Assembly (NCBI RefSeq): GCF_010550675.1
Contig: NZ_JAAGOA010000018.1
Location: forward strand, 1-64,000
Direction of reading: 5' to 3'
From: Phytoactinopolyspora halotolerans
Lineage (GTDB): Bacteria; Actinomycetota; Actinomycetes; Jiangellales; Jiangellaceae
Length of the DNA stretch: 64,000 nt
Positions 668 through 62,831 of the stretch are shown in pieces; position 1 is the first letter of the stretch, and each line of letters begins with the position of its first letter. The notes beneath the pieces are model-generated. The model had not been told where the DNA came from. It made no database searches and was given only the letters and a program-made list of their open reading frames with translations. Position numbers and translations under genes: made by a program.

Positions 668-2154
668 CGTTGCGCTCCCTTGCCTCCGCATACGTGATCA
701 TCGACGGTGGTGCCGGTCAATGGTAGGGCCGGCGATTGATGATCGTGGGGTAGTAGCCGGTGCTCGCCGCCGTCGACGACGATACGGCCGCCGACGACGA
801 CCGTCGCGACGTCGGCGGAGCTCGCCGTCAGTACCAGCTGTGCCGGATCGGCGCCGGCGGTGCGGACGGTATCCGTGCGTACCGCCACCAGGTCGGCAGC
901 GGCTCCGACAGCGATCCGCCCGTTCGCCGGCCACCCGAGTGCCGTGTGCCCGCGCGCGGTCAGCGTCGCCACCAGCTCGGCCGGCGAGAACCGGCCGCGC
1001 CGACCGGTGGCCAGCCGCTCGTGCATCTCCAGCAGCCGCGCCTCGGTCAGCAGGTCGATCACGGCGTGCTGGTCGCTGCCGAGGCAGACCGTCGAGCCGG
1101 CGGCGTCCAGCGCTCCCATCGGAGAGATGCCGTCGGCCAGGTCCTGCTCGGTGGTCGGGCAGGCGCATACCGCGGTGCCGGTGGAGCCCAGCAGCTGGAT
1201 GTCCTCCTCGCTGAGGTGGGTGGCGTGCACCGCCGTGGTCCCGGGACCGAGCGCCCCGGCGTCGGCGAGCACCCTGGCCGGGGTGCGGCCGTATTCGGCC
1301 AGGCAAGCGTCGTTCTCGGCGGGTTGCTCGGACAGGTGGACGTGCAACGGTGCGTGCGCCGATTCCGACCACGCCGCGACGGTGCCGATCGCCGTCTCCG
1401 GGACGGCTCGCACGGAATGGACGGCCGCTCCCACCAGCACGTCCGGGGTGGTGCCGCGATGGTGCCGGGCGGGCTGATCGTCCACGGTGCCCATTGGCGC
1501 GGCGACGACGTCCTTGAGTCGTTGCACCCGTTCCGCCCACCGTTCGGCCGTGCCGTCGCCGAAACGTCGCTGCGGCCCCGCCAGCGGGGTTCGGATCCCG
1601 CCCTGCAGGTAACACGTATCCACCAGGGTCAGCCGGATGCCGGCGTCGGCGGCAGCCTGGATCAGGGCCAGCCCCATCTCGTTCGGATCGGCATACGGCG
1701 AGCCGTCCGGCGCGTGGTGCAGGTAGTGGAACTCGCCGACGACGGTCGCCCCGGCCAGCACCATCTCCCGGTACACCGTGCGGGCCAGGCGGTGGTAACT
1801 CTCCGGCGTCAGTCCCTGCGCGACCGTGTACATGCTGTCCCGCCAGGTCCAGAAGGTGCCGCCGTCGCCGTGCGTCCGTCCGCGCAACGCCCGGTGGAAC
1901 GCGTGCGAGTGCGCGTTGGCGAAGCCGGGAAAGACCACACCCGGCAGCCGAACGTCGGCCGGCTCGGGGCCGACGCCGGTGCGGACCGCTGTGATCGCCC
2001 CGCCGCTTGTTTCGATCCGCACGCGTTCGGCGAGCTCGAGGCCGCTGCCCCGGCTGCCTCGGCTGTGCTGGTTGCGCTGCTCGCCGTGGCTGCCCGAGCC
2101 GCTCGCGGCGCTCACCCATGCCCGTTCCGCCCAGAACGTCATCGCCGCGTTCAC
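664..2154 (-). CDS. hutF: Formimidoylglutamate deiminase
   Basis: Deaminates N-formimino-L-glutamate to N-formyl-L-glutamate plus ammonia (amidohydrolase superfamily, zinc enzyme, cytoplasmic). Visible signatures: [14 protein letters not shown] (metal site), [32 protein letters not shown] and [12 protein letters not shown]. About 496 aa with a GTG start at 2154, whose TGA overlap with the upstream gene and GGAG 8 nt upstream favour it; ATG at 2142 is the alternative. The last 25 or so codons (from HDHQSP onward) are encoded by a palindromic element at 691-750 and look foreign to the family, so the normal C-terminus probably ended near HRLLP. Its product needs a deformylase, which the neighbouring M20 gene may supply. 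Confidence 0.92.
691..750. repeat. Palindromic element, family C, copy 1 (hutF 3' end)
   Basis: Imperfect inverted repeat of about 60 nt with GATCATC arms near both ends; the minus strand begins CCCCACGATCATCAA. The centre shares TGACCGG with the copies at 3315, 53698 and 55112. Here the centre reads CCATTGACCGG instead of CCATGACCGG, so it offers no ATG start, and hutF reads straight through it. Confidence 0.75.
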
Positions 2155-3344
2155 GCGACCAACTCCGCCAGGCACCGCGTGAGGGCCTCCACACCGGCGA
2201 GGCAGTCGGCGCGCTCAGCGTGTTCGTCAGGGGAGTGCGAGACCCCGGTCGGATTGCGGACGAACAGCATGGCGGCCGGGATCCCTGCCGCGCTCAGGAT
2301 CCCCGCATCGTGACCGGCTCCAGTGGAGAGCACCGGGGCGTCCAGGGTGCGGCTCAATTGTGCGACGAGCGCCTCGTCGAAGACCGTCACCGGCGTCCAG
2401 GACTCATTCGTCGATGTGAACTCCGCCAGCCCGGCCAGGACCCGCTCGACCCGCTCCGTTTCGGCGGCACGGCAGTCGACCCATGCGGTGACGTGCGACG
2501 GGATCGCGTTGACGCCGTTGGGTTCGATCTTCACCTTGCCGACGGTGGCCAGCGCATCGTGTCGCGCCGCACCCGCTCGGGCGCCTTCGATGAGTGCAGC
2601 GAGCCGGAGCATCGGGTCATCCCGGTCGGCCAGCGCCGTCGTTCCCGCGTGATCGGCGCGTCCGGCCAGCTCGACGCGCCAGCGCCCGTGCGGCCAGATC
2701 ATGTTCCCGACGGCGACCGGCCAGTCCAGGTCGGCGAGGCCCCGGCCCTGCTCGATGTGGAGCTCCAGGAACGTGCCGACGCGTCGCACGGTCTTCGGGT
2801 CGGGACCGATCAGCTCCGCGTCGTACCCGCTCTGGCGGACCGCATCGCTCAAGCTGGTGCCGTCGTCGTCGGTCAATCCCCGCGCTCGGTCGGCCGGCAG
2901 TGCCCCGGTGATGATGCGTGAGCCGGCGCAGGCGACGCCGAACCGGGCACCCTCCTCGTCGGCGAAGCAGGCGACGCCGATGGGACGGGACGGCCGGACA
3001 CCGCGGGCGCGCAGTGCGTCCACGGCCAGGAACGCCGAGACGACGCCCAGCGGCCCGTCGTACGCGCCGCCGCTGGGCACGGAATCCAGGTGGCTGCCGG
3101 TGACGACGCCGGGTCCGTCGGTGTCGGGATCACCCCACCACGCCCACTGGTTCCCGGCGCGATCGACGACGGTGCTCAGCCCGCGACGCCCGGCCTCCGC
3201 GACGAACCACTCCCGCAGCGTGTGGTCCGCCCGCGTCCAGGCGAACCGCCGGTACCCGCCGCCCGGTTCCCGCCCGACCGGTGCGAGGTCCGCCCACATC
3301 CGATCGAACTCCTTCCCATGGTCATCGAGGGTTGGGCCGGTCAT
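2151..3344 (-). CDS. M20-family amidohydrolase (allantoate amidohydrolase/N-carbamoylase type), possible formylglutamate hydrolase
   Basis: Metal-dependent amidase of the hydantoinase/carbamoylase group, 397 aa. Metal and substrate motifs are present in order: [36 protein letters not shown] and STGAGHDA. Homologues are usually annotated as allantoate amidohydrolase. No purine-degradation gene is nearby, whereas HutF makes N-formylglutamate and no hutG is seen, so a role as N-formyl-L-glutamate amidohydrolase is inferred; similar gene order occurs in Streptomyces hut clusters. The ATG at 3344 overlaps the hutU stop (ATGA) and lies inside a palindromic element. An alternative ATG at 3299 has AAGGAG 9 nt upstream and matches the usual family N-terminus ([10 protein letters not shown]). 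Confidence 0.88.
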
Positions 3345-3373
3345 GGCGCGTCCCGCCGTTGATGATCATGGGG
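3315..3373. repeat. Palindromic element, family C, copy 2 (hutU/amidohydrolase junction)
   Basis: On the minus strand it begins CCCCATGATCATCAACGG and ends CTCGATGACCATGGG, with CGCGCCATGACCGGCCC in the centre. It is clearly related to the copy at 55112-55172 in the pca operon. It encodes the hutU C-terminus (HDHQRRDAP, stop) and the [11 protein letters not shown]-terminus of the next gene. Confidence 0.88.
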
Positions 3374-11793: not shown

Positions 11794-13155
11794 GTGCCGA
11801 ACGCGGAAGTGCAGCGCACGGTGGACGCCGTCTGGCGGATCGAGTCCGCGAGGCTGATCGCCGGCCTGGCTCGGATGGTCCACGACATCGGTGTGGCGGA
11901 GGACCTCGCGCAGGATGCTCTGGTCGCGGCGATGGAGCAGTGGCCGGAGTCGGGAGTCCCGGAGAATCCTGGTGCCTGGCTGATGGCCGTCGGCAAACGT
12001 CGTGCCATCGATCAGTTCCGCCGGCAGGAACGGTTGGAACGCAAGGTCGGCCAGCTCGGACGTGACCTGGAGTTCCAGCAGCCGAACGTCGAAGATGAGC
12101 TGGTCGACGCTATCGACGACGATATCGGTGACGACCTGCTCCGGCTGATCTTCACGGCGTGTCATCCGGTGCTGTCCGTGGAAGCGCGGGTCGCCCTCAC
12201 GCTGCGCCTGCTCGGCGGACTGAGCACGGACGAGATCGCGCGTGCTTTCCTGGTTCCGGAGACGACCGTCGCGCAGCGCATCGTCCGGGCGAAGCGTACG
12301 CTCGCCGCGCGCAAGGTCGAGTTCGAGCTGCCGCGCGGAGAGGATCGGACCGCCCGGATGGGGTCGGTCCTGGAGGTCATCTACTTGATCTTCAATGAGG
12401 GTTATGCGGCCACGGCCGGGAAGGACTGGGTCCGCCCGGCGCTGTGTGAGGATGCTCTGCGGCTCGGCAGGATCCTGGCCGGCTTGGCGCCGGCCGACGC
12501 GGAGGTCCACGGTCTGGTGGCCTTGCTGGAGATTCAGGCGTCCCGGCTGCGTGCGCGCGTCGGCGCGGCAGGTGAGCCGGTACTGTTGCTCGACCAGAAC
12601 CGAGCCCTGTGGGACCGGCTACTGATCCGGCGTGGCTTGGCGGCGCTGGAGCGGGCGGAGAGCCTGGCCGCTGCACAGACCGATACGTCGTCCTCCGAAG
12701 CATCCGGGCAGGTGCCGTGCGGTGGGCGCGGGCCGTACACCCTGCAGGCGGCGATCGCCGCCTGCCATGCTCGTGCGGTCGTGCCGGAGGCCACCGACTG
12801 GGTGCGGATCGCCGCTCTGTACGCTGCGCTCATGCAGGTCGCACCGTCGCCCGTGGTGGAGTTGAACCGCGCGGTGGCGCTCGGTATGGCGTTCGGGCCG
12901 GAGGTCGGGCTGCAGGCCGTCGATGAGCTGGCGGCGGAGCAGACGCTGCAGAGCTACCACCTGCTGCCCAGCGTCCGCGGGGACCTGTTGGTGAAGCTCG
13001 GCCGCAAGGAGGAAGCGCGCGCCGAGTTCGAGCGGGCCGCGTCGTTGACGCGGAACGAGCGCGAGCGGACGCTGCTGCTCGACCGAGCCGCCGCCTGCCA
13101 TCCCGGACTCCATGATCATCAACATCTAGCCGATGATGGTAAATTCAACGGCTGA
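11794..13155 (+). CDS. ECF42-type RNA polymerase sigma factor with C-terminal extension
   Basis: 453 aa. The sigma-2 region (about 12-80) includes VAEDLAQDALVAAMEQWP, and the sigma-4 region (about 120-180) includes LGGLSTDEIARAFLVPETTV. A long helical TPR-like extension follows, containing LIFNEGYAATAGKDWVRP, diagnostic of the ECF42 group linked to DGPF proteins. These sigma factors have no dedicated anti-sigma gene, and their C-terminal domain is needed for activity in studied members. The last 14 codons (HDHQHLADDGKFNG) are contributed by a palindromic element, and the stop overlaps the next gene. Confidence 0.93.
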   Translation: MPNAEVQRTVDAVWRIESARLIAGLARMVHDIGVAEDLAQDALVAAMEQWPESGVPENPGAWLMAVGKRRAIDQFRRQERLERKVGQLGRDLEFQQPNVEDELVDAIDDDIGDDLLRLIFTACHPVLSVEARVALTLRLLGGLSTDEIARAFLVPETTVAQRIVRAKRTLAARKVEFELPRGEDRTARMGSVLEVIYLIFNEGYAATAGKDWVRPALCEDALRLGRILAGLAPADAEVHGLVALLEIQASRLRARVGAAGEPVLLLDQNRALWDRLLIRRGLAALERAESLAAAQTDTSSSEASGQVPCGGRGPYTLQAAIAACHARAVVPEATDWVRIAALYAALMQVAPSPVVELNRAVALGMAFGPEVGLQAVDELAAEQTLQSYHLLPSVRGDLLVKLGRKEEARAEFERAASLTRNERERTLLLDRAAACHPGLHDHQHLADDGKFNG

Positions 13156-13166
13156 TGACATGGGAG
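13109..13166. repeat. Palindromic element, family C variant (sigma/methyltransferase junction)
   Basis: Arms CTCCATGATCATCAACA and (reverse complement of the right end) CTCCCATGTCATCAGCCG frame a centre different from the other C copies. It supplies the sigma-factor tail and stop, the overlapping ATG of the methyltransferase ORF, and the GGGAGG at its right edge. Confidence 0.6.
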
Positions 13167-13829
13167 GAAATGACCGACATGAGGGTGGAGCACGCGGCGC
13201 CGGACGGCAGCCCGGTCGGGGTGTACCTGGCCATTCCGGCTGGGAAGGAACCGGAGATCATCCACAGCTCGATCGCTTCGGACGCGGACATCCTGGAGCT
13301 GGGATGTGGCGTCGGTCGGTTGACCCGCGTACTGCTGGCATACGGCCACGACGTGGTCGGTGTGGACAATGACCCGGTGATGCTGGCCCACGTGACCGGC
13401 GCCGAGACTGTCCACGCCGACTTCTACGACCTTGACCTGGGCCGCCGATTCGGGGCCGTCGTCGCCGCCAGCCACCTGGTCAACACGCCGGGTGAGGCCA
13501 ACCGGATCCGGCTGCTCGAGGTCTGCGCCCGCCACGTGCGCGACGACGGCGTGGTGCTCGTCGAACGGTATCCCCCGGCCTGGTCCGAGGACCCGCACGA
13601 CAGCTCCGGCATGACCGGGCCCGTGGCGTCCGCCGTGTCCGTTCACCGAAAGGGTCCCGACGGCTTCTCGGCGACCGTGGAGTACCGGCTCGGCGAGCGC
13701 CGCTGGCAGCACGACTTCACGGCGGAGCACGTCGACGACGCGATGATGATCGACGCCGCCGCCAAGGCCGGGCTGAGGTTCGCCGATTGGGTCGACGACG
13801 CGCAGACCTGGGCCCGCCTCCTCCCATGA
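13155..13829 (+). CDS. Class I SAM-dependent methyltransferase
   Basis: Up to 224 aa. The SAM-binding motif ILELGCGVGRLTRVLLAYG is near residue 47, followed by VVGVDNDPVMLAHV and a LVNTPGEANRIRLL segment. The substrate cannot be told. The longest ORF starts at an ATG overlapping the sigma stop (TGATG) inside a palindromic element; ATG 13182 with GGGAGG 11 nt upstream is a credible alternative. Its stop TGA lies inside the next palindrome at 13824. Confidence 0.85.
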   Translation: MTWEEMTDMRVEHAAPDGSPVGVYLAIPAGKEPEIIHSSIASDADILELGCGVGRLTRVLLAYGHDVVGVDNDPVMLAHVTGAETVHADFYDLDLGRRFGAVVAASHLVNTPGEANRIRLLEVCARHVRDDGVVLVERYPPAWSEDPHDSSGMTGPVASAVSVHRKGPDGFSATVEYRLGERRWQHDFTAEHVDDAMMIDAAAKAGLRFADWVDDAQTWARLLP

Positions 13830-13878
13830 TCATGAACACTAACCGTGCTATGTGAACGGTTAGTGTTCATGATCATGG
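13824..13878. repeat. Palindromic element, family A, copy 1 (between convergent genes)
   Basis: Perfect 23-bp arms, beginning CCATGATCATGAACACTAAC, around a 9-nt loop; 55 bp in all. Both convergent genes stop inside it: the methyltransferase with TGA at 13827-13829 and the GH5 gene with TAA at 13860-13862. In the minus-strand reading it is fully open and encodes MIMNTNRSHSTVSVHDHG. It may also act as a bidirectional terminator stem. Confidence 0.93.
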
Positions 13879-18999: not shown

Positions 19000-20298
19000 A
19001 TGCGCCAGATGACCCGACGGCAGACCCTGAAGGCCGCGGCCGTGGCGGCTCCGACACTCGGTTTGTGGGCGTGCGGGAACGATGACTCGACCGGCGGCGA
19101 CGGCGGCCCGGTGGAGCTGCGTTACGCCTTCTGGGGCGGGGACAGCCGAGCCCAGATGACACAGGAGATGATCGACGAGTTCGAGGCGGAGAACGCCGAC
19201 ATCGACGTCAGACCCGACTATTCCGATTTCGGTGCCTACTGGGACAAGTTGGCCACCAGTGTCGCCTCCGGTGACGCGCCGGACATCATCACCATGGGCG
19301 GCGCCTATCCGAGCGAGTACGCCGGCCGCGGGAGCCTGCTGGACCTCGGCCAGGTGAGCGACATCATCGACACCGACCGGATCGACGCGGCCGTCCTGGA
19401 CAACGGGATGATCGACGGCTCGCTCTATGCGCTGCCGACCGGTGTGAACACCTATGCGGTGGTGGCGAACCGGGCGCTGTTCGACGAGGCAGGGGTCGAC
19501 TTCCCGGATGACCGAACCTGGACCTGGGATGATTTCCTGCAGATCTGCGTCGCGCTGAGCGAGTCGCTCGGTGACGACCGGTTCGGCACCCAGGACGCGA
19601 CCAACCACAACACCCTGATGCTGTGGGCGCGGCAACGCGGTGAATCGTTGTACACCGCTGACGGCGGGCTGGGGATATCCGCCGAGTCGGTCGCCGAGTG
19701 GTGGGAGCTGGCGCTGCAGCTGCGGGATCGGGGCGGCGCTCCGTCGGCGACCCTGACGGCCGAGCTGGAGAGCCAGAACGCGCCCGAGCAGACCCTGATC
19801 GGGACCAACTCGGCGGGGCTGTCGCTGATCTGGTCCAACGTCCTCGATGTTCTCCGGCAAGCGTCCGGTGAGGAACTCGTCCTGCTCAAACCTCCGGGCG
19901 AGAGCGAGGGCCAGCCGGGCACGTGGCTGGGGCCGTCGATGTTCTACACCATCTCCGCGGACAGCGACCATCCAGAGGAAGCGGCGGAGCTGGTCGACTT
20001 CATGCTGAACGATCCGGATGCGGCTGAGGCGTTCCTGACCGACCGTGGTCTCCCGGTGAACCCGGAGGTCCGTGAGGAGATCCTGGACGAGCTGACCCCC
20101 GGGCAACGGGTCGAGGCCGAGTTCCTGACCCGGATGGAGAGCGAAGTCGGTGAGGCTCCGCCCCCGCCGCCGGTGGGGTCGAGTGAGACCGCGCTGATCG
20201 TGTCCAGACTTAACAGCGAGGTGCTCTTCGACCGGCTGACCCCGCAGGAAGCGGCCGAGCAGTTCGTCGCCGAGACCGAGGCGGCATTGGGCGTATGA
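19000..20298 (+). CDS. ABC sugar-transporter substrate-binding lipoprotein (copy 2)
   Basis: 432 aa. The N-terminus MTRRQTLKAAAVAAPTLGLW contains a twin-arginine-like RRQTLK and a lipobox ending at Cys, so it may be a Tat-exported lipoprotein. The mature part LRYAFWGGDSRAQMTQEMID and the PTGVNTYAVVANRALFDEAG segment mirror copy 1. ATG 19000 follows CGGAGG. Its stop overlaps the glycosidase start (ATGA), tying the two. Confidence 0.93.
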   Translation: MRQMTRRQTLKAAAVAAPTLGLWACGNDDSTGGDGGPVELRYAFWGGDSRAQMTQEMIDEFEAENADIDVRPDYSDFGAYWDKLATSVASGDAPDIITMGGAYPSEYAGRGSLLDLGQVSDIIDTDRIDAAVLDNGMIDGSLYALPTGVNTYAVVANRALFDEAGVDFPDDRTWTWDDFLQICVALSESLGDDRFGTQDATNHNTLMLWARQRGESLYTADGGLGISAESVAEWWELALQLRDRGGAPSATLTAELESQNAPEQTLIGTNSAGLSLIWSNVLDVLRQASGEELVLLKPPGESEGQPGTWLGPSMFYTISADSDHPEEAAELVDFMLNDPDAAEAFLTDRGLPVNPEVREEILDELTPGQRVEAEFLTRMESEVGEAPPPPPVGSSETALIVSRLNSEVLFDRLTPQEAAEQFVAETEAALGV

Positions 20299-22517
20299 CA
20301 GCCGAACCGGCCCGGGACAGCGGAAATCTCGGCGAGGGGATCGACCGGCAGGCGCTGGTCGAGCGGCACACTGTGGTGTTGCGAGAAGCGGACGTCCGCT
20401 CGCCTCTGTCCGTCGGCAACGGTGAGTTCTGCTTCACCGCGGACATCACCGGCCTGCAGACCTTTCCCGACCACTATCCCGTGGAGTCCCGGGACGGCAC
20501 CGGACCCGGGACACTGCTGGGCACGCAGGCGCAATGGGGATGGCACTCGACGCCTGGTGGGGCGAGCTACCGGGTGGACGACATGTGTGTCGGATACCAG
20601 ACACCCGGCCGTGCCGAGCCGGTGCCGTATGTCGATATGTCGGGCACGATCGGCGGGACCGGGGATCGCAGTGACTCCGCCGCCGAACTGTGGCTGCGCG
20701 CCAACCCGCACCGGCTGGATCTGGGCCGGATCGGGTTTCGGCTACTCGATTCGGATGGGCGCGTGCGGCGTCTGACGTTGGCAGACGTCGAAGACGCGGT
20801 TCAGCGGCTCGATCTGTGGCGGGGCATCCTGCACAGCTCGTTCACCATCGCCGGGTACGCCGTGAACGTGGAGACGGTCTGCCACCCGGAGCGGGATGTG
20901 CTGGCGGTGCGGATCCGTTCGGATGCCTTGCGTGAATCTCGGGCGGCGGTGGGGATAGCGTTTTCCTACGGCGCGGAGCGCTGGCATGACGCCGCCGACT
21001 GGTCTCGCCCGGACGCGCACCGCACCACGGTCCGTCGTCGCGACGGCGGCTGGCAGGTGGACCGCGAGCTGGACGCCACCGGTTATCAGGTCGAGATCGC
21101 CGCATCGCCGGGTGTGGCGCTGGACCAGGTGGGGCCGCATGAGCTGCGCGTGACCTCGTCGTCGGCAGCCATGGAGCTGGTCGTGGGCTTCACCGACGGC
21201 GGCGGGCCGGACCGCGCGGCTTCGGCGTCCGCACCGCTCGTGCTGCCGTCGTCGTTCGACGACGTCCGCTCCGCCGCGGCCGAACACTGGCGACGGTTCT
21301 GGACTGAGGGTGCGGCCGTAGACCTGGACGGCAGCACCGACGACCGGGCGCCGGAGCTGGAGCGGCGCGTCGTGCTGTCGCAGTACCTGACGGCGATCAA
21401 CGGGGCGGGGTCGGTGCCGCCGCAGGAGACCGGATTGGTCTGCAACTCGTGGTTCGGCAAGTTCCACCTGGAGATGGTGTGGTGGCACGTCGCCCACTTC
21501 GGCCTGTGGAACCGGCCCGGATCGCTGGAGCGAGTGCTGCGCTGGTACCGGCGAGCGTCCGAGTCCGGACGGGAGACGGCCAAGCGCCAGGGTTACGCGG
21601 GTGTCCGCTGGCCGAAGATGGTGGGCCCGGACGGCAGGGAGAGCCCCAGCCCGATCGGCCCGTTCCTGATCTGGCAGCAGCCGCATCCGATCTATCTCGC
21701 AGAGCTCCTCTACCGAAACCAATCCATGATCATGAACAGTAACCGTGCACATAGCACGGAAAGTGTTCATGATCATGGAAGTGGGCGTGTGCTGGAGGAG
21801 TACGCCGGCATCGTCTTCGAGACGGCGGAGTTCATGGCGAGCTTCGCGAGACCGACCTCCCGCGGCTACGAGCTGGGCCCGCCGGTGATCCCCGCGCAGG
21901 AGTCGTACGGATCGATGCGGGCGCGGGCCAGCAACCCGACCTTCGAGTTGGCCTACTGGCAGTGGGCACTCGGCGTCGCCCAGCAGTGGCGTCGTCGCCT
22001 GGGGCTGGCGCCGGACCCGCATTGGGACGCCGTCGCGCACGGCCTGGTGCGGCCACACGTCCGGGACGGCGTGTATGCGGCGATCGACGTCGAACCATAC
22101 ACGATCCGCACCGATCACCCGTCGATGCTGTGCGGGTTGGGCTTTCTGCCCCGCACGCCGTTGATCGAGCCGGAGACGATGCGGGCCACGCTGCGTGACG
22201 TGCTCGACGACTGGGACTGGGACAGCACCTGGGGATGGGACTATCCCGTGCTGGCGATGTGTGCTGCCCGGCTGGAGGAGCCGGAGCTGGCGGTGTCAGC
22301 GCTGACGATGGAGGTGGGCAAGAACACATATCTGGCGAGCGGGCACAACCGGCAGACGGACTCGCTGCCGCTGTACTTGCCAGGAAACGGAGGTGTTCTG
22401 GCTGCCGTGGCCCTCATGGCGGCCGGATGGGATGGCATGCCGGACCGGCATGCTCCCGGATTTCCACACGATGGGCGGTGGACCGTCCGGCACGAAGGGC
22501 TGATCCGTAGCCCATAA
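20295..22517 (+). CDS. Six-hairpin glycosidase-like enzyme with in-frame palindromic insert
   Basis: 740 aa, no signal peptide. An N-terminal beta-sandwich-like half begins VRSPLSVGNGEFCFTADITG; the C-terminal (alpha/alpha)6-type half includes CNSWFGKFHLEMVWWHVAHF and YLASGHNRQTDSLPLYLPGN, resembling GH65/GH95-type and uncharacterised six-hairpin glycosidases. Residues 477-495 (from SMIMNSNRAHSTESVHDHG) are encoded by a 55-bp palindromic element lying between LLYRNQ and RVLEEYAG, where relatives would be expected to have a short loop between helices. The frame is kept and both halves look intact, so the enzyme may still fold. Probable intracellular processing of imported sugar. Confidence 0.88.
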   Translation: MTAEPARDSGNLGEGIDRQALVERHTVVLREADVRSPLSVGNGEFCFTADITGLQTFPDHYPVESRDGTGPGTLLGTQAQWGWHSTPGGASYRVDDMCVGYQTPGRAEPVPYVDMSGTIGGTGDRSDSAAELWLRANPHRLDLGRIGFRLLDSDGRVRRLTLADVEDAVQRLDLWRGILHSSFTIAGYAVNVETVCHPERDVLAVRIRSDALRESRAAVGIAFSYGAERWHDAADWSRPDAHRTTVRRRDGGWQVDRELDATGYQVEIAASPGVALDQVGPHELRVTSSSAAMELVVGFTDGGGPDRAASASAPLVLPSSFDDVRSAAAEHWRRFWTEGAAVDLDGSTDDRAPELERRVVLSQYLTAINGAGSVPPQETGLVCNSWFGKFHLEMVWWHVAHFGLWNRPGSLERVLRWYRRASESGRETAKRQGYAGVRWPKMVGPDGRESPSPIGPFLIWQQPHPIYLAELLYRNQSMIMNSNRAHSTESVHDHGSGRVLEEYAGIVFETAEFMASFARPTSRGYELGPPVIPAQESYGSMRARASNPTFELAYWQWALGVAQQWRRRLGLAPDPHWDAVAHGLVRPHVRDGVYAAIDVEPYTIRTDHPSMLCGLGFLPRTPLIEPETMRATLRDVLDDWDWDSTWGWDYPVLAMCAARLEEPELAVSALTMEVGKNTYLASGHNRQTDSLPLYLPGNGGVLAAVALMAAGWDGMPDRHAPGFPHDGRWTVRHEGLIRSP
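21724..21778 (+). repeat. Palindromic element, family A, copy 2 (inside a gene, in frame)
   Basis: 55 bp, same length as copies at 13824 and 45433. Arms CCATGATCATGAACAGTAAC and, read on the other strand, CCATGATCATGAACACTTTC. It has diverged by several bases and is open in the host frame (MIMNSNRAHSTESVHDHG). The peptide aligns with those of the other copies. Confidence 0.93.
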
Positions 22518-35699: not shown

Positions 35700-35706
35700 C
35701 CCGAGC

Positions 35707-35800
35707 CCTAAATGATCATGTGAAGTAGGTTTTCGCCAGCACCCCCATGTCTGCAGGCATGGTAGTGCACGAAGAAACCTACTTCACATGATCATTTAGG
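35707..35800. repeat. Palindromic element, family B, copy 1
   Basis: 94 bp. Arms begin CCTAAATGATCATGTGAAGT on both strands and stay perfect for 26 bp. The centre holds a second small palindrome, CCATGTCTGCAGGCATGG. It lies between the convergent GH3 and GTPase genes and ends just before the GTPase stop, so may serve as a bidirectional terminator stem. Confidence 0.93.
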
Positions 35801-35816
35801 CGTCGGTCGGTGGGTG

Positions 35817-45432: not shown

Positions 45433-45487
45433 CCATGATCATGAACACTTACCGTTCACATAGCACGGTAAGTGTTCATGATCATGG
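45433..45487. repeat. Palindromic element, family A, copy 3 (between convergent genes)
   Basis: 55 bp, arms beginning CCATGATCATGAACACTTAC and ending GTAAGTGTTCATGATCATGG. It starts one base after the membrane-protein stop and contains the amidohydrolase stop (TGA at 45482-45484). The plus reading is open and encodes MIMNTYRSHSTVSVHDHG. Confidence 0.93.
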
Positions 45488-50900: not shown

Positions 50901-50952
50901 CGATGGGATGCGGGTTTGGTGCGCCAGGACGCACCAAACCCGCATCCCATCG
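50901..50952. repeat. Palindrome, 23-bp perfect arms (family D) between pcaJ and pcaF
   Basis: Arms beginning CGATGGGATGCGGGTTTGGT around the 6-nt loop CCAGGA. There is no T-run and no ATGATCAT core. It begins 36 nt after the pcaJ stop and ends 45 nt before pcaF. Could stabilise or partly terminate the mRNA, or be a separate repeat family. Confidence 0.9.
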
Positions 50953-50997: not shown

Positions 50998-52173
50998 GTG
51001 AACGACGCGTACATCCTGGATGCGGTGCGTACACCGTTCGGCCGGTACGGCAAAGGGCTGGCCGACGTCCGCCCGGACGATCTGGCCGCGCACGTGCTGC
51101 GTACGGTCGGCGTGCGGACGGGTCTGGATCCGGCCGACGTCGACGACGTCGTGTTCGGTGCGGCCAACCAGGCGGGCGAGGACAACCGGAACGTGGGCCG
51201 GATGGCGGCGCTGCTGGCCGGCTGGCCCACCACCGTGCCGGGCACCACGGTGAACCGGCTCTGCGGATCGAGCCTGGATGCGGCGATGCAGGCATCCCGG
51301 ATGATCATGGTCGGCGACGCGTCGCTCGTCGTCGTCGGCGGCGTGGAGTCGATGAGCCGGGCGCCGTGGGTGCTGCCCAAGCCGTCGAAGGCCTTCCCGG
51401 CCGGGGCGGAGACGCTGCACTCGACCACCCTCGGGTGGCGGTTGACGAATCCGGCGATGCCGAAGGAATGGACGGTCTCGCTCGGCGAGAGTACCGAGAT
51501 CCTCGCCGAGCGATACGGCATCGGCCGCGACGAGCAGGACCGGTTCGCGCTCCGCAGCCACCAGCTCGCCGACGCCGCCTGGAACGCCGGCTTCTACGAC
51601 ACCCATGTGACGCCGGTGCCCGGCACCGACCTCGTCCGGGACGAGGGCATCCGCACCGACACGTCGCTGGAGAAGCTGGCCAAGCTGGCGCCCGCGTTCC
51701 GGCCGGATGGCACCGTGACCGCCGGCAACGCGTCGCCGCTGAACGACGGTGCGTCGGCGCTGCTGCTCGGCGACCAGACCGCGGCCGACCGGCTCGGAGC
51801 GACGCCGCTGGCGCGGATCGCGGCGCGCGGTGCCGCCGGTGTCGATCCGGACGTGTTCGGCATCGGCCCGGTGCGGGCAGCCGAGACCGCGCTGAAGCGG
51901 GCCGGGATCGGCTGGGCGGACCTCGGCGTCGTCGAGCTGAACGAGGCCTACGCCGCCCAATCCCTCGCCTGCCTGGCCGAGTGGCCGGAGCTGGACCCCG
52001 AGATCGTCAACGTCAACGGCGGCGCGATCGCCATCGGCCATCCGCTCGGCGCCTCCGGCGGCCGGATCCTCGCCCAGCTCGCCCATGAGCTGCGCCGGCG
52101 GGGAGGCGGCTGGGGATTGGCGGTGCTGTGCATCGGCGTGGGCCAAGGACTCGCCGTCGTCCTAGAGGCATGA
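50998..52173 (+). CDS. pcaF: 3-oxoadipyl-CoA thiolase
   Basis: 391 aa thiolase that cleaves beta-ketoadipyl-CoA to succinyl-CoA and acetyl-CoA, the end of the pathway. Nucleophile Cys89 in TVNRLCGSSLDAAMQA, His348 in IGHPLGASGG, and Cys378 in CIGVGQG. GTG 50998 is chosen at VNDAYILDAVRTPFGRYGKG, the family N-terminus, with GGGAG upstream; longer frames run into the palindrome. Confidence 0.95.
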   Translation: MNDAYILDAVRTPFGRYGKGLADVRPDDLAAHVLRTVGVRTGLDPADVDDVVFGAANQAGEDNRNVGRMAALLAGWPTTVPGTTVNRLCGSSLDAAMQASRMIMVGDASLVVVGGVESMSRAPWVLPKPSKAFPAGAETLHSTTLGWRLTNPAMPKEWTVSLGESTEILAERYGIGRDEQDRFALRSHQLADAAWNAGFYDTHVTPVPGTDLVRDEGIRTDTSLEKLAKLAPAFRPDGTVTAGNASPLNDGASALLLGDQTAADRLGATPLARIAARGAAGVDPDVFGIGPVRAAETALKRAGIGWADLGVVELNEAYAAQSLACLAEWPELDPEIVNVNGGAIAIGHPLGASGGRILAQLAHELRRRGGGWGLAVLCIGVGQGLAVVLEA

Positions 52174-52322: not shown

Positions 52323-53090
52323 ATGACCGGACTGGACGACATCCGCGCCCCGGGCGCCGTGACCCGCGGCGGACTGGTGCTCCCGCATTATCCGATCCCG
52401 AAGGACGTCCACCCGTCGCTCGACTCACCGGAGTACCGGTCCACCGCGCTGCGGCATCCGACGCAGCCGTTGCAGCTCATGCCGCAGCGGCTGACCGAGG
52501 TGACCGGGCCGCTGCTCGGCGAGGAACGGGTCGGCGAACTCGACCACGACCTCACCCGTCAGCACGACGGCGAGCCGCAGGGGCAGCGGATCATCGTGCA
52601 CGGCCGGGTCCTGGAGGAGGACGGACGGCCGGTGCCGAACACGCTGGTGGAGGTCTGGCAGGCCAACGCGGCCGGCCGGTACCGCCACACCGGCGACAAC
52701 TGGCCGGCGCCGCTGGATCCGAACTTCACCGGAGTGGGCCGCTGCATGACCGACGCCGACGGCCACTACCGGTTCGTGACGGTCAAGCCGGGCATCTATC
52801 CGTGGCGCAACCATGACAACGCGTGGCGCCCCTCGCACATCCACTTCTCCCTGTTCGGCCGCGCGTTCACCCAGCGGCTGATCACCCAGATGTACTTTCC
52901 CGACGATCCGCTGTTCTTCCAGGACCCGATGTGGAACTCGGTGCGCGACGAGAACGCGCGGCAGCGGATGCTGTGCCACTACGACCACAGTGCCACGGAG
53001 GCGGAGTGGGCCTTGGGGTTCCGCTTCGACATCGTCCTGCGCGGTCCGCAGGCCAGCGTCTTCGAAGAGGAGGACGACGACGATGAGTGA
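52323..53090 (+). CDS. pcaH: Protocatechuate 3,4-dioxygenase, beta subunit
   Basis: 255 aa intradiol dioxygenase subunit that holds the catalytic Fe(III). Expected ligands: Tyr120 in GRYRHTGDNWPAPLDP, Tyr159 in GIYPWRNHDN, His172 and His174 in RPSHIHFS. Opens protocatechuate to 3-carboxy-cis,cis-muconate with PcaG. The C-terminus is a run of acidic residues. The 3' end overlaps pcaG by 8 nt. Confidence 0.96.
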   Translation: MTGLDDIRAPGAVTRGGLVLPHYPIPKDVHPSLDSPEYRSTALRHPTQPLQLMPQRLTEVTGPLLGEERVGELDHDLTRQHDGEPQGQRIIVHGRVLEEDGRPVPNTLVEVWQANAAGRYRHTGDNWPAPLDPNFTGVGRCMTDADGHYRFVTVKPGIYPWRNHDNAWRPSHIHFSLFGRAFTQRLITQMYFPDDPLFFQDPMWNSVRDENARQRMLCHYDHSATEAEWALGFRFDIVLRGPQASVFEEEDDDDE

Positions 53091-53685
53091 TCAGAACGCG
53101 GCGGTGGGCGCGGGCGGCCGGTTGGGCGTCACCCCGTCCCAGACCGTCGGGCCGTTCTTGCACATCGGCCTGCCCTGGCCGGACGGACCGTATGTGGTGC
53201 CGGAGGGCACGGCGGGGGCGGTGTGGATCACCGGCACCGTGTACGACGGCGCCGGGCAACCGGTGCCGGACGCCGTGGTCGAGACCTGGCAGGCGGACCC
53301 CGACGGCCGATTCGACCACCCGGACGATCCGCGCGGCGCGGCGAAGCCGTCGATACCGGGGTTCCGCGGTTTCGCGCGCTGCGACACCGACGCGGACGGG
53401 CGGTACCGGGTGCTGACGGTGAAACCCGGTCCGTTGCCGTGCCCGGACGGCGGGACGGAGGCGCCGCACCTGGACGTCACCGTGCTGGCGCGTGGCCTGC
53501 TCGACCGGGTGGTGACCCGGATCTACTTCCCGGACGAGGACGCCGCCAACGCGGCGGATCCGGTGATGTCCGCGGTTCCGCCGGATCGGCGTGGCACGCT
53601 GGTGGCGGAGCCGGACGGCGACGGCGGGCTCCGGTTCGACATCCGGCTCCAGGGCGACGGGGAGACGATCTTCTTCGAGGTCTGA
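53083..53685 (+). CDS. pcaG: Protocatechuate 3,4-dioxygenase, alpha subunit
   Basis: 200 aa. TPSQTVGPFLHIGLPWPDGP near the start and VVETWQADPDGRFDHPDDPR follow the alpha-subunit pattern. It lacks the full Fe ligand set, as usual for this subunit (PHLDVTVLARGLLDRVVTRI in place of the HIH site). ATG 53083 lies within pcaH, showing coupled translation. Confidence 0.95.
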   Translation: MSDQNAAVGAGGRLGVTPSQTVGPFLHIGLPWPDGPYVVPEGTAGAVWITGTVYDGAGQPVPDAVVETWQADPDGRFDHPDDPRGAAKPSIPGFRGFARCDTDADGRYRVLTVKPGPLPCPDGGTEAPHLDVTVLARGLLDRVVTRIYFPDEDAANAADPVMSAVPPDRRGTLVAEPDGDGGLRFDIRLQGDGETIFFEV

Positions 53686-53697
53686 CGAGCCGGACTG

Positions 53698-53755
53698 CCC
53701 GTGATCATCGACCGATCGACCGTCTCTGACCGGTCCAACGGTTGGTGATCACGGG
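53698..53755. repeat. Palindromic element, family C, copy 4 (pcaG/pcaB gap)
   Basis: 58 nt; arms CCCGTGATCATCGACC and (opposite strand) CCCGTGATCACCAACC. The centre has CTCTGACCGGTCCAACGG, related to the hut and pcaB/pcaD copies, but no ATG. It falls wholly between genes; the pcaB ribosome site GGAGGAGGAGGTGAG starts at its right edge. Confidence 0.88.
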
Positions 53756-53768
53756 AGGAGGAGGTGAG

Positions 53769-55145
53769 ATGGCGGGGCTGCTGGAGGCGCTGGACGGCGA
53801 CCCGGCGGTCGACCGCGAGGTCGGCGACGGGGCGCTGGTGCGCGCGCTGCTCGACGTCGAGGCCGCGCTGGCTCGTGCGCTCGCCCGGGCCGGGCTGGTC
53901 TCCGACGACGCCGCGGCGGCCGTCGCGGAGGCGGCGTCGACACTGGACGTGGACGCCGAGGAGTTGGGCCGACGAGCGGTCGCGGCGGGCAACCCCGTGG
54001 TTCCGCTCGTGCGAGACCTCGCCGCGGCCGTGCCGGAGCATGCCCAAGACGCCGTCCATCGAGGAGCCACCAGCCAAGACATCCTCGACACCGCCTTGCA
54101 GCTGCTGGCGAGGCGGGCATTGGAGCCAGTGCTGCAGTACCTGCGCGCGGCCGGCGACGCCGCTGCTCGCCTCGCCAGGGATCACCGGCGGACGGTGATG
54201 GTCGCGCGCACGCTCGGCCAACCGGCACAACCGACGACGTTCGGCCTGCGGGCAGCGAACTGGCTGGCCGGTCTGGACGCGGCGAACGCTGAGCTGACGA
54301 GGATCCGGGACGAGGTGCTCGCGGTTCAGCTCGGTGGCGCCGCCGGCACCCTGGCCGGATACGACGCCGGGCCCGCAGACGGGCGGGGGAGCGAGCCGCT
54401 GGCCGCCGGGGTGCAGGTGATGGCACATCTGGCCGACGAGCTGGGACTGGCGGACCCCGGGGTGCCGTGGCACACCGAACGATCGCGGGTGCAGACTCTC
54501 GGTTCGGCGCTCGGCGTCGCCGTCGCCGCGTGCGGCAAGGTGGCCACCGACGTCATCCTGCAGTCGCAGGGCGAGATCGCAGAGGTCGCGGAGGGAGCGC
54601 CGGGCGGTTCCTCGGCCATGCCGCATAAGCGCAACCCGGTCGCCTCCGTGCTGGTCGTGGCGGCGGCCCGGCGGAGCCCGGGACTGGTCGGCACGCTGCT
54701 CGCCAGCGGGTTGCACGAACAGGACCGCGCCACCGGTTCCTGGCACGCCGAATGGGCTCCGTTGCGTGAGTTGCTCCGGCTGTCCGGCGGCGCCGCGGCG
54801 CATACCGCGTCGGTGCTGGACGGCTTGGACGTGGACCCGGTGGTGATGCGTCGCAACCTCGATGCCGCGGCTCCCGGCGTCTTCTCTGAGTCGCTGGCCG
54901 CCCCGCTGATTCCGGTGCTCGGCCGGGCCGCGGCACAGGACGCGGTGCGCGCGGCGCTGGACGAGGCGCCTGGCGGCGGCCTCGAGCTGGTGGCGGTCCT
55001 CCGTCACGACCCGGCCGTCGCCGACGCCGTCGACGAGGGCGAACTGGCCGCCCGGCTCGATCCTGTACACGCACTGGGTGCGGCCGATGCCGTCATCGAC
55101 CGGCACCTTCGCGCCCATGATCGTCAACGGGTGGTCGCACCATGA
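53769..55145 (+). CDS. pcaB: 3-carboxy-cis,cis-muconate cycloisomerase
   Basis: 458 aa fumarase/aspartase-superfamily enzyme. RGATSQDILDTALQLL, and the superfamily signature GGSSAMPHKRNPVASV. Converts 3-carboxymuconate to 4-carboxymuconolactone. ATG 53769 follows a strong GGAGGAGGAGG site; the upstream TTG at 53742 in a palindrome is not needed. The final residues HDRQRVVAP and stop lie in the next palindrome, echoing HDHQRRDAP at the end of hutU. Confidence 0.95.
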   Translation: MAGLLEALDGDPAVDREVGDGALVRALLDVEAALARALARAGLVSDDAAAAVAEAASTLDVDAEELGRRAVAAGNPVVPLVRDLAAAVPEHAQDAVHRGATSQDILDTALQLLARRALEPVLQYLRAAGDAAARLARDHRRTVMVARTLGQPAQPTTFGLRAANWLAGLDAANAELTRIRDEVLAVQLGGAAGTLAGYDAGPADGRGSEPLAAGVQVMAHLADELGLADPGVPWHTERSRVQTLGSALGVAVAACGKVATDVILQSQGEIAEVAEGAPGGSSAMPHKRNPVASVLVVAAARRSPGLVGTLLASGLHEQDRATGSWHAEWAPLRELLRLSGGAAAHTASVLDGLDVDPVVMRRNLDAAAPGVFSESLAAPLIPVLGRAAAQDAVRAALDEAPGGGLELVAVLRHDPAVADAVDEGELAARLDPVHALGAADAVIDRHLRAHDRQRVVAP

Positions 55146-55172
55146 CCGGGCCGATGGTTGATGATCACGGCG
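55112..55172. repeat. Palindromic element, family C, copy 5 (pcaB/pcaD junction)
   Basis: 61 nt; left arm CGCCCATGATCGTCAACGG, right arm GGTTGATGATCACGGCG, centre GTGGTCGCACCATGACCGGG. It closely matches the hutU junction copy. It contains the pcaB stop (TGA 55143-55145), an ATGA overlap and both usable pcaD start codons (55142, 55154). Confidence 0.92.
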
Positions 55173-55972
55173 TCGGACGTCGGGAGCGGCATCGGCTCGG
55201 GTACGACATTCATGGACCGGCGGACGCGCCGGTAGTGGTGCTGGGCAGCTCGCTGGGAACCACGCGTGCCATGTGGGATCCGCAGCTGGACGCCCTGAGC
55301 GCGTCGTTCCGGGTGATCCGTTACGACCATCTGGGACACGGCGCGTCCGAGGTGCCGCCGGGGCCGTACTCGATCGAAGGGTTGGCGGCGGACCTGATAG
55401 GCCTGCTGGACGAGCTCGGTGTGCGCCGGGCCCATCTCGGCGGCCTCTCGCTCGGTGGCATGGTCGCGCTGCAGGCCGCGGCCGCCTTTCCGGAGCGCGT
55501 CGACCGGTTGGCCGTGATCTGCTCCTCGGCACACCTGCCCCCGGCGGACGGGTGGCGCGAGCGCGCGGCGACCGTCCGCGACGGCGGGATGGCGGCGGTG
55601 GCGGACCGCGTCGTCGCGCGCTGGTTCACGTCGGCGTTCGCGGAGACAGCCGCGGCGAAGGCGCTCTACGACGACCTGCTGCGGACACCGGCGGAAGGAT
55701 ATGCGGGCTGTTGCGAGGCGATCGCCGCGATGGATCTGCGGCCGGTGCTGTCCCAGGTACGCAGCCCGACGCTCGTCGTCGCCGGCGAGCAGGATCCGGC
55801 GACGCCGATCGAGCACGCGCGGACCGTCGCCGACGGGGTGGCTCAGGGCGGTGCACCGGTCCGGGTGGAGACGGTCCGGCCGGCAGCACATCTCGGTAGT
55901 GTGGAACGTCCGGAGGAGGTCAGCGGGCTGCTCCTGGACCACCTGCGGACCTCTGCCGGTGAATCGGCTTAG
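55142..55972 (+). CDS. pcaD: 3-oxoadipate enol-lactonase
   Basis: 276 aa alpha/beta hydrolase: nucleophile Ser103 in LGGLSLGGMVALQ, oxyanion-side LGSSLGTTRAMWDPQ, and catalytic His in RPAAHLGSVERPEEV. Hydrolyses beta-ketoadipate enol-lactone. The first 10-12 residues (MTGPMVDDHGVG) come from the palindromic element. Between the upstream in-frame stop at 55118 and the core domain, the only start codons (55142, 55154) lie within it, with SD-like GGGTGG 7 nt before 55142. pcaC is separate, not fused as pcaL. Confidence 0.94.
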   Translation: MTGPMVDDHGVGRRERHRLGYDIHGPADAPVVVLGSSLGTTRAMWDPQLDALSASFRVIRYDHLGHGASEVPPGPYSIEGLAADLIGLLDELGVRRAHLGGLSLGGMVALQAAAAFPERVDRLAVICSSAHLPPADGWRERAATVRDGGMAAVADRVVARWFTSAFAETAAAKALYDDLLRTPAEGYAGCCEAIAAMDLRPVLSQVRSPTLVVAGEQDPATPIEHARTVADGVAQGGAPVRVETVRPAAHLGSVERPEEVSGLLLDHLRTSAGESA

Positions 55973-56045
55973 GCCGCAGCCTTGCGATCGTGCGGTGCGA
56001 ACGGCGTGCAACGCGGCGCGGAGACGGGAAGAACGGGGTGAGAGC

Positions 56046-56429
56046 GTGACCGACGACGAACGCTACGACGGGGGCATGGCGGTACGGCGAGCGGTGCTCG
56101 GCGACGAGCATGTCGACCGCGCCGGCGCGCGCACCACTGACTTCACCGCCGACTTCCAGAACCTGATCACTCGTTACGCCTGGGGCGACATCTGGTCTCG
56201 GCCCGGCCTGGATCGTCGTACGCGTAGCTGCATCACCCTGGCGATGCTGGCCACGCTCCACCACGACCAGGAGCTGGGCATGCATGTACGCGCCGCGTTG
56301 CGGAACGGACTGACGGCGGACGAGATCAAGGAGATCCTGTTGCAGGTGGCGGTCTATGCTGGCGTCCCGGCCGCGAACCGTGCATTCGCGGCCGCGCAGC
56401 AGGTCTTGAGCGAGGAAGGGCTGAGCTGA
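56046..56429 (+). CDS. pcaC: 4-carboxymuconolactone decarboxylase
   Basis: 127 aa carboxymuconolactone-decarboxylase fold: YDGGMAVRRAVLGDEHVDRA, RYAWGDIWSRPGLDRRTRSC and the helix LHHDQELGMHVRAALRNGLT with the catalytic His region. Makes the enol-lactone used by PcaD. The GTG at 56046 is preceded by GGGGTGAG; the open frame extends far upstream antisense-free but is pcaD in another frame. Confidence 0.94.
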   Translation: MTDDERYDGGMAVRRAVLGDEHVDRAGARTTDFTADFQNLITRYAWGDIWSRPGLDRRTRSCITLAMLATLHHDQELGMHVRAALRNGLTADEIKEILLQVAVYAGVPAANRAFAAAQQVLSEEGLS

Positions 56430-56475
56430 TGCGTGCAGGAGGCTTCGTCCCGCCACGGCCAGTAGCGTGGTCGGC

Positions 56476-57255
56476 ATGAACGAGGAGCGGGGCGCCGACT
56501 TCGTCCAGTCCCTGGAACGAGGGCTCGCGGTCATCCGGGCGTTCGACGCCGACCACCCGCAACTCACGCTCAGCGACGTCGCGAGAGCGACCGGGCTGAC
56601 GCGGGCGGCCGCGCGACGATTCCTGCATACGCTCGTGGAGCTCGGCTACGTCGGCACCGACGGTCGGCTGTTCTCCCTCCGCCCACGCATCCTGGAGCTG
56701 GGCTACGCGTACCTGTCCAGCCTGTCGCTGCCGGAACTGGCCATGCCCTCGATGGAGCGGCTGGTGGAGCGGATCCGGGAGTCCTGCTCGATGGCGGTGC
56801 TCGACGGCGACGACGTCGTCTACGTCGCCCGGGTCCCGACCAAACGGATCATGAGCGTGGTGATCAGCGTGGGCACCCGGTTCCCCGCCTACGCCACCTC
56901 GATGGGGCGGGTTCTGCTCAGCCACCAGGATCCGGCCCGTCTCGACGACTACCTGTCCCGGGTCAAGCTGGACCCGCTCACGCCGAAGACCATCACGGAT
57001 CGGGAGGAACTGCGTGCGGTGCTCGATCGGGTGCGTACCGACGGCTATTGCCTGGTCGACGAGGAGCTGGAGGAGGGCCTGCGCTCGATGGCGGTGCCGG
57101 TTCGGGACCGGGACGGACACGTCGTGGCCGCATTGAACGTGTCCGCGCACACCAGCCGCGGCTCGGCCAGCGCGATCCGTCGTGACCTGCTGCCACCGCT
57201 GCGGGAGACCGCGGAGGCGATCTCGGCCGACATCGCCCGCGCCCATCATCCGTGA
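56476..57255 (+). CDS. pcaR: IclR-family regulator of the pca genes (PcaR-like)
   Basis: 259 aa. N-terminal FVQSLERGLAVIRAFDADHP and wHTH LTLSDVARATGLTRAAARRF match the PcaR/PobR/PcaU branch of IclR; the C-terminal effector domain has FPAYATSMGRVLLS and GYCLVDEELEEGLRSMAVPV. Ligand is likely beta-ketoadipate or protocatechuate by family. Encoded directly after pcaC and probably acting on the GTTC-N7-GAAC sites between pobA and pcaI. ATG 56476 preferred to GTG 56467. Confidence 0.9.
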   Translation: MNEERGADFVQSLERGLAVIRAFDADHPQLTLSDVARATGLTRAAARRFLHTLVELGYVGTDGRLFSLRPRILELGYAYLSSLSLPELAMPSMERLVERIRESCSMAVLDGDDVVYVARVPTKRIMSVVISVGTRFPAYATSMGRVLLSHQDPARLDDYLSRVKLDPLTPKTITDREELRAVLDRVRTDGYCLVDEELEEGLRSMAVPVRDRDGHVVAALNVSAHTSRGSASAIRRDLLPPLRETAEAISADIARAHHP

Positions 57256-60164: not shown

Positions 60165-61058
60165 GTGTCCGAGCCCGGCACCTTCGACGTAGCAGACCTG
60201 GTCGCCGTCGACGTGCACACGCACGCGGAGATCTCAGCAGATGGCCACCCATCGCTCAGCCCGGAGCTCGAGGCCGCCAAGGGCGCGTACTTCAAGGCGT
60301 CGGGTCCGCCTCCCACCATCGCGCAGATGGCCGAGTACTACCGGGAGCGACGTATCGCCGCGGTGGTCTTCACCGTCGATGCGGAGGCGGCGACCGGACA
60401 TCCGCCCATCCGGAACGAGGAGGTCGCGGCCGCGTGCGCGGAGCATGCGGACATCCTGATCCCGTTCGCCAGCATCGACCCGTGGAGAGGGCGGGCAGCG
60501 GCCCGTCGTGCTCGGGTGCTGGCGCGCGATCACGGCGTCCGCGGGTTCAAGTTCCACCCGTCGTTGCAGGAGTTCTTCCCGAACGACAGGATGGCGTATC
60601 CGCTCTACGAGGCGCTCGAGGAGCTCGGATTGCCGGCGCTGTTCCATACCGGGCAGACCGGGATCGGCGCGGGTGTCCGCGGCGGCGCCGGTATCCGGCT
60701 GAAGTACTCGAACCCGTTGCACGTGGACGATGTGGCGGCGGATTTCCCCGAGCTGCCGATCATCCTGGCTCACCCGTCGTTCCCGTGGCAGGACGAAGCG
60801 TTGGCGATCGCCACCCACAAACCGCAGGTCCACATCGACCTGTCCGGGTGGTCGCCGAAGTACTTCCCGCCGCAGCTGGTCCGCTACGCCAACTCGCTGC
60901 TGAAGGAGAAGGTGTTGTTCGGATCGGACTACCCGGCGATCACCCCGGACCGGTGGCTCGCCGACTTCGAGAAGCTGGACATCAAGCCCGAGGTGCGGCC
61001 ACTGATCCTCAAGGAGAACGCAGCCCGCCTTCTGCACCTAGACACCCGACCTAAATGA
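60165..61058 (+). CDS. Amidohydrolase family 2 (ACMSD-like metal-dependent hydrolase)
   Basis: 297 aa TIM-barrel. VAVDVHTHAEISADG holds the HxH metal site, FKFHPSLQEFFPND and ALFHTGQTG the next His ligands, and VLFGSDYPAITPDRWLADF the Asp. Related enzymes are decarboxylases or hydrolases of aromatic or carboxylic ring-cleavage products. GTG 60165 has GGGAGG 5 nt upstream. The C-terminal Arg-Pro-Lys and stop run into the palindrome at 61050. Likely co-expressed with the ligase downstream and controlled by the PaaX-like protein. Confidence 0.88.
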   Translation: MSEPGTFDVADLVAVDVHTHAEISADGHPSLSPELEAAKGAYFKASGPPPTIAQMAEYYRERRIAAVVFTVDAEAATGHPPIRNEEVAAACAEHADILIPFASIDPWRGRAAARRARVLARDHGVRGFKFHPSLQEFFPNDRMAYPLYEALEELGLPALFHTGQTGIGAGVRGGAGIRLKYSNPLHVDDVAADFPELPIILAHPSFPWQDEALAIATHKPQVHIDLSGWSPKYFPPQLVRYANSLLKEKVLFGSDYPAITPDRWLADFEKLDIKPEVRPLILKENAARLLHLDTRPK

Positions 61059-61143
61059 TCATGTGAAGTAGGTTTTCTCGTGCGCTAACAGGTCTGCAGA
61101 CATGGTTGGGCACGAGAAAACCTACTTCACATGATCATTTAGG
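61050..61143. repeat. Palindromic element, family B, copy 2 (34-bp perfect arms)
   Basis: 94 bp: arms beginning CCTAAATGATCATGTGAAGT and identical over 34 bp, loop of 26 nt with GGTCTGCAGACATGG. It contains the amidohydrolase stop TGA (61056-61058). Same length and boundaries as the copy at 35707. Confidence 0.96.
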
Positions 61144-61193
61144 TGCGGCGAAGGCGACACGACGCGAGGCGAGGCGAAGGCGAGGAGGCGGCG

Positions 61194-62750: not shown

Positions 62751-62758
62751 CCTTACCG

Positions 62759-62831
62759 GGCTTTCTCGTGCACCAACAGGTCTGCAGGCATGGTAGAGCA
62801 CGCGAAAACCCACTTCACATGATCATTTAGG
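62759..62831 (+). repeat. Palindromic element, family B, truncated copy 3
   Basis: 73 nt matching the right-hand three-quarters of the copy at 61050, from CTTTCTCGTGC through GGTCTGCAGGCATGG to CACTTCACATGATCATTTAG. The first 21 nt of the left arm are missing, so it can no longer form the outer stem. It starts 9 nt after the ligase stop. Confidence 0.88.

Follow-up and report, generated by a model that had tools for sequence, protein, structure and literature searches.

A short REP-like repeat that elsewhere marks gene 3′ ends lies over the pcaB/pcaD junction of Phytoactinopolyspora halotolerans, where it provides the stop codon of the first gene and the start codon of the second and, on what we regard as the probable reading, couples translation of PcaD to that of PcaB. 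The junction lies in a stretch of 64,000 nucleotides that was analysed as a whole (the window) and that belongs to an actinobacterial genome of 7.3 Mb.

Predicted gene ends within the junction element

The following features, all on the plus strand, make up the junction.

53769..55145, +: pcaB, with HDRQRVVAP (the last ~8 residues) and the stop codon within the element
55112..55172, +: the element, a copy of a dispersed imperfect palindrome of ~61 bp lying over the pcaB/pcaD junction (homology search, covariance model and fold)
55129..55134, +: GGGTGG, a weak stretch resembling a Shine-Dalgarno (SD) sequence, mostly inside the predicted stem; putative SD role
55142..55972, +: pcaD, with MTGPMVDDHG (the first 10 residues) within the element and the conserved family beginning at residue 19
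55142..55145, +: ATGA, the pcaD start over the pcaB stop, in the predicted hairpin loop
55154..55156, +: second in-frame pcaD ATG, the sole other one upstream of the conserved domain

A preliminary description of this DNA had placed a 61-nt inverted repeat over the junction; its coordinates are right, although the palindrome is imperfect and the repeat is one copy of many. The same description had read the HDRQRVVAP end of PcaB with its stop and the MTGPMVDDHG head of PcaD out of the repeat, joined by an ATGA overlap, and translation confirmed this, with PcaB ending in ...AHDRQRVVAP at the stop codon 55143–55145. Its account of the pcaD frame also holds: the preceding stop (TGA 55118) and both usable ATG codons (55142 and 55154) are in the repeat, no further ATG, GTG or TTG codon occurs ahead of residue 32, and GGGTGG is found 7 nt before the first of the two. 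Read in this way, the element is the source of the PcaB C-terminal residues and stop as well as of the predicted PcaD start and first 10 residues, and pcaD is left without any other plausible start codon. Both proteins exceed the cut-offs of their NCBIfam models, TIGR02426 for PcaB and TIGR02427 for PcaD; since the TIGR02427 model starts at residue 19, residues 1–18 of PcaD lie outside the conserved protein.

The junction element belongs to a dispersed repeat family

Taken as a lone palindrome, the junction element constitutes weak evidence. The 61 nt fold with a minimum free energy of −28.4 kcal/mol (z −1.86; 7 of 200 shuffles were equally good), the z-score is −0.25 in a 111-nt context, the ungapped palindrome score of 10 is matched by 127 centres in the window, and by fold energy the copy ranks 51st of 78, weaker than most. 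Such weakness is what one would expect of a chance palindrome within ordinary coding sequence. What takes the element beyond chance is the existence of homologous full-length copies elsewhere: a 78-nt query against its own genome gave 47 matches at E ≤ 10 and found many other full-length copies (E 3.6e-12, 4.4e-11, 1.8e-9 and so on). With dozens of homologous copies, mostly at gene ends, the chance explanation was ruled out, and we assign it a probability close to nil.

The family consensus is an imperfect palindrome of ~61 bp, CCCnTGATCATCAAC...CACCATGACCGG...GTTGATGATCACGGG. Using a covariance model built from 23 copies (150 candidates scored over both strands; copy counts are lower bounds), we located it at no fewer than about 78 non-redundant places in the P. 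halotolerans genome (G000) and obtained matches in 21 of 22 Jiangellaceae genomes. Outside the Jiangellaceae, a class-wide sample of 198 genomes yielded three genomes with one weak match each; the repeat family is essentially confined to the Jiangellaceae. Copies have the termini CCC-RTGATCA and TGATCAY-GGG, and RTGATCA provides ready-made TGA stops on both strands, while the inner arms are variable and the loop is frequently CACCATGACC and often carries ATGA. Across 42 equal-length copies the inner stem displays 12 kinds of Watson-Crick pair versus 6.7 ± 1.2, above all 500 shuffles, and pairs far better than in slid registers. The stem therefore covaries, with the relatedness of the copies only partly controlled and gene conversion possible.

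The inner arms differ by lineage (CAAGRGTTG in G011, GAACACTTTGCCG in G019, CAACGAT in G001), and one genome, G019 (L216–L233), has about 66 copies with one exact palindrome arm; taken together, these two observations point to lineage-specific amplification of the family. The G019 copies that have this arm in common also suggest recent spread or gene conversion there.

No Rfam family reached the gathering score in the window. We found no account of the repeat family in the open-access literature and no repeat description in the listed titles and abstracts of Jiangellaceae papers, and a literature text search with the arm sequences returned only papers unrelated by title. The family, which is order-specific and marks the 3′ ends of Jiangellaceae genes, has apparently not been described before.

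Placement of the family at gene 3′ ends

Genes were called with a purpose-written simple codon-usage gene caller. By these calls, 77 of the 78 copies have two flanking genes, arranged in tandem (50), convergently (20) or divergently (7). Within tandem pairs the element is closer to the upstream stop than to the downstream start in 44 of 50 cases (p 3e-8), and 74 of 90 neighbouring stops fall within −9 to +21 nt of the element edge. For 27 of these 90 the stop is the TGA of the element's own terminal RTGATCA; genes stopping there mostly end in Pro-stop or Ser-stop, which fits the element itself supplying CCR-TGA, and a MIRU-like rule of insertion at native RTGA stops was considered but seems less likely on these grounds. 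Convergent gene pairs can have one element in common, with one stop per arm. The same tendency was observed in G018 (27 copies, 10 convergent and 1 divergent) and in the G011, G019 and G001 samples. Because the copies sit at gene 3′ ends, the general role of the family is most likely that of a gene-3′-end hairpin, either an RNA terminator or an mRNA-end element.

The strong bias to gene 3′ ends, the convergent pairs and the stem covariation would also suit a reading in which the junction copy serves chiefly as a transcription terminator, attenuator or mRNA-stability hairpin that lowers or separates pcaD expression, the stop/start overlap being incidental. It could also draw on work cited in PMC12306157, according to which E. 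coli REPs ≤15 nt from a stop codon stall ribosomes. We nevertheless consider this reading less likely: the pca operon contains two copies, and the one at the junction is translated through, provides the only pcaD start and has one of the weaker hairpins. Furthermore, 53000–56500 contains no intrinsic terminator (a stem followed by a T run), and a U-tract terminator was rejected for that reason.

Element-free relatives and the polarity of the change

By PcaD, the nearest named relative is Phytoactinopolyspora endophytica (Jiangellaceae; 76% identity), whose pcaB/pcaD junction is without the element (CCCATGATCGGAAGGAACGGCGATGACGCATCGG). Here PcaB ends in ...HDRKERR-stop, PcaD begins with MTHRLGYDVHGP, the two genes overlap by ATGA, and an SD-like GGAAGGAA is present. 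Planosporangium, Kineosporia and Micromonospora likewise have a pcaB/pcaD stop/start overlap and a short PcaD head. The N-terminal extension of PcaD is missing in five relatives, and the comparison proposed in the preliminary description, of the HDRQ tail and the MTGP..DDHG head, found both missing in P. endophytica and other relatives.

Because the element-free P. endophytica and the outgroups already overlap at this junction, the element appears to have replaced an existing overlap and not to have created it; the earlier suggestion that the insertion made the coupling is not borne out. The pcaB/pcaD overlap is thus old. The native pcaD start appears to have been lost, so that the element holds the pcaB stop and the only plausible pcaD starts, with the ATGA of its loop serving in place of the native ATG.

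Insertion of the element at pcaB/pcaD in the P. halotolerans lineage is likely on this comparison. The polarity is likely rather than certain, because CCCATGATCG, found at the element's left edge, also occurs in P. endophytica, where it could mark a preferred target or be the remnant of a lost copy. If it is a relic, the element would be ancestral at pcaB/pcaD and would have been lost in P. endophytica, a history that could also accommodate the different palindrome found at the same junction in a sister genus. In that genus (G021, also Jiangellaceae) a near-perfect 93-nt hairpin (L097:1444-1536, −84.4 kcal/mol) contains the pcaB stop and in-frame ATGs for pcaD, the true PcaD start being ambiguous. 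We consider an ancestral element unlikely, as the short PcaD head, the SD-like GGAAGGAA and the ATGA of P. endophytica match the outgroups, and the G021 palindrome comes from another sequence family.

Other copies and junctions of the same layout

Further copies in the window are as follows.

53696..53756, +: second copy in the pca operon, between the pcaG stop (10 nt off) and the pcaB start (12 nt off, strong SD); fold z −6.4
3313..3373, −: copy with the urocanase stop and the M20 peptidase start inside, laid out as at pcaB/pcaD
690..751, −: weaker copy at the 3′ end of gene 664-2154 (−)
13107..13165, +: weak copy over the junction of genes 11794-13155 and 13155-13829, missing in P. endophytica

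At the counterpart of the pcaG-pcaB site, the spacer of P. endophytica is longer and unrelated. At the urocanase/M20 junction this species has kept both the element and the ATGA. In P. halotolerans urocanase ends in HDHQRRDAP-stop, and M20 peptidase orthologues elsewhere in the family align only from residue 6–12 on. At the same junction, G017 has an element in a different phase, with a −4 overlap here too, G021 has a decayed element, and G020 has a native overlap and no element. The M20 peptidase shares the element-encoded N-terminal peptide of PcaD, as does an APH-family gene after ProRS, which starts at a loop ATG (N-terminus MTGLTVDDHG). Among the copies inspected, those with both stop and start within the loop are rare: two in G000 (pcaB/pcaD and urocanase/M20) and one in the G018 sample. 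The layout persists across species at 3313, C34:273502, C34:91023 and C34:322298.

Two of these cases, pcaB/pcaD in two genera (with different palindromes) and urocanase/M20 in several lineages, would fit a more speculative proposal, which we offer tentatively. The family may act as a portable gene-end cassette, a still-spreading palindrome with stops in its arms on both strands and an ATGA loop, that repeatedly lands on operon overlaps and gives new C-termini, a new overlap and the shared N-terminal peptide MTG..VDDHG.

Proposed origin and mechanism

In the model we favour, a REP-like Jiangellaceae palindrome, as a rule found immediately after stop codons and there probably forming a 3′-end RNA hairpin, would have come onto the native pcaB/pcaD overlap in the P. 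halotolerans lineage, with loss of the native pcaD start. Ribosomes translating pcaB would open the left arm of the element, terminate at the loop TGA and reinitiate at the overlapping ATG, which would make PcaD translation dependent on that of PcaB. This mechanism is in line with both the RNA-unfolding and the reinitiation models of coupling reviewed in PMC12548453. That urocanase/M20 has the layout of pcaB/pcaD and keeps it in P. endophytica argues for the model as a whole; the weak SD, the poorer fold of the junction copy compared to most others and the rarity of copies spanning both stop and start argue against it.

The preliminary description had spoken of a mobile repeat that inserted and became a coupling device. 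That the repeat is dispersed is established and its insertion is likely; we infer its coupling role from the layout of the junction, and its mobility is suggested by dispersal, lineage-specific amplification and presence/absence differences. Y1/RAYT transposase (PF01797) was absent from all 22 family genomes, control genomes being positive, and mobilisation as a RAYT-dependent REP was rejected. A target site duplication was not clear at either of two empty sites inspected. Solitary arms gave no convincing sign of a full-length insertion sequence that ends as the element does, and no IS-like arm pair was seen in the parts inspected.

The near-identical, lineage-specific amplification in G019 and the presence/absence differences between species would also be expected of a selfish, functionless repeat whose stops and loop ATGA are harmless enough for it to be tolerated at gene ends; MIRU offers a precedent of minimal-impact insertion (PMC12548453). 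We regard this as possible but less likely, given that the layout at the four sites named above persists across species and that the stem covaries, with the reservation as to relatedness and gene conversion already given.

Comparison with known systems

REPs are short palindromes with a high copy number that for the most part follow closely after coding regions and probably form RNA hairpins (PMC3733652; PMC12306157). Similar to REPs of the GTAG/CGTC superfamilies, the Jiangellaceae element is short, multi-copy, close to gene 3′ ends and a probable hairpin. Unlike them, it has no conserved unpaired GTAG/CGTC tag in the alignment and flanks, its ends being RTGATCA, it is unaccompanied by a Y1/RAYT transposase in the 22 genomes, and it often provides the stop codon itself. 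MIRU is a repeat found at an operon junction with a −4 nt stop/start overlap (PMC12548453). The −4 overlap at an operon junction is common to both, though in G000 it occurs at pcaB/pcaD and urocanase/M20 only and is rare in the family; compared by description rather than by sequence, the Jiangellaceae element differs in being palindromic and in lying mostly behind stops instead of at starts. It also has no small ORF of its own, the ends of neighbouring genes extending into it. Rickettsia palindromic elements (RPEs) are palindromic repeats translated within host proteins (PMC2229807), and they and translated MITEs resemble the present element in becoming part of a host protein; however, RPEs are 105–146 bp long and lie in-frame within ORFs, whereas the 61-bp element makes up the C-terminus of one protein and the N-terminus of its neighbour. 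ATGA-coupled gene pairs share the −4 nt spacing and the hairpin that covers the downstream start, as in the RNA-unfolding model, but at pcaB/pcaD the overlap is provided by a dispersed repeat in place of the native one. The Jiangellaceae element is a REP-like hairpin with a MIRU-like start/stop overlap.

The junction offers a natural case, with element-free and element-bearing relatives, of a catabolic-operon start/stop overlap that appears to have been replaced by a repeat, and urocanase/M20 peptidase gives a second, conserved example within the window. The case illustrates how ready-made gene ends can come from a repeat, and it allows a direct test of whether repeats give rise to gene ends, N-terminal extensions and overlap coupling.

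The window holds other palindromes as well. Sister palindrome copies (ATGATCATGAACACT...) at 13824-13878 and 45433-45487 lie at convergent gene ends, and a ATGATCATGAACA palindrome copy at 21723-21779 lies inside the called gene 20295-22517 (+) and may be translated through. A third palindrome family of ~100 nt, with AAATGATCATGTGAAGTAGGTTTT arms, is present at 35701-35806, 61049-61144 and 62758-62811 (partial), each ~10 nt or less from a stop codon. Finally, a perfect 23-nt inverted repeat of unrelated sequence (50901-50952) is located between a gene end at 50864 and a gene start at 50998.
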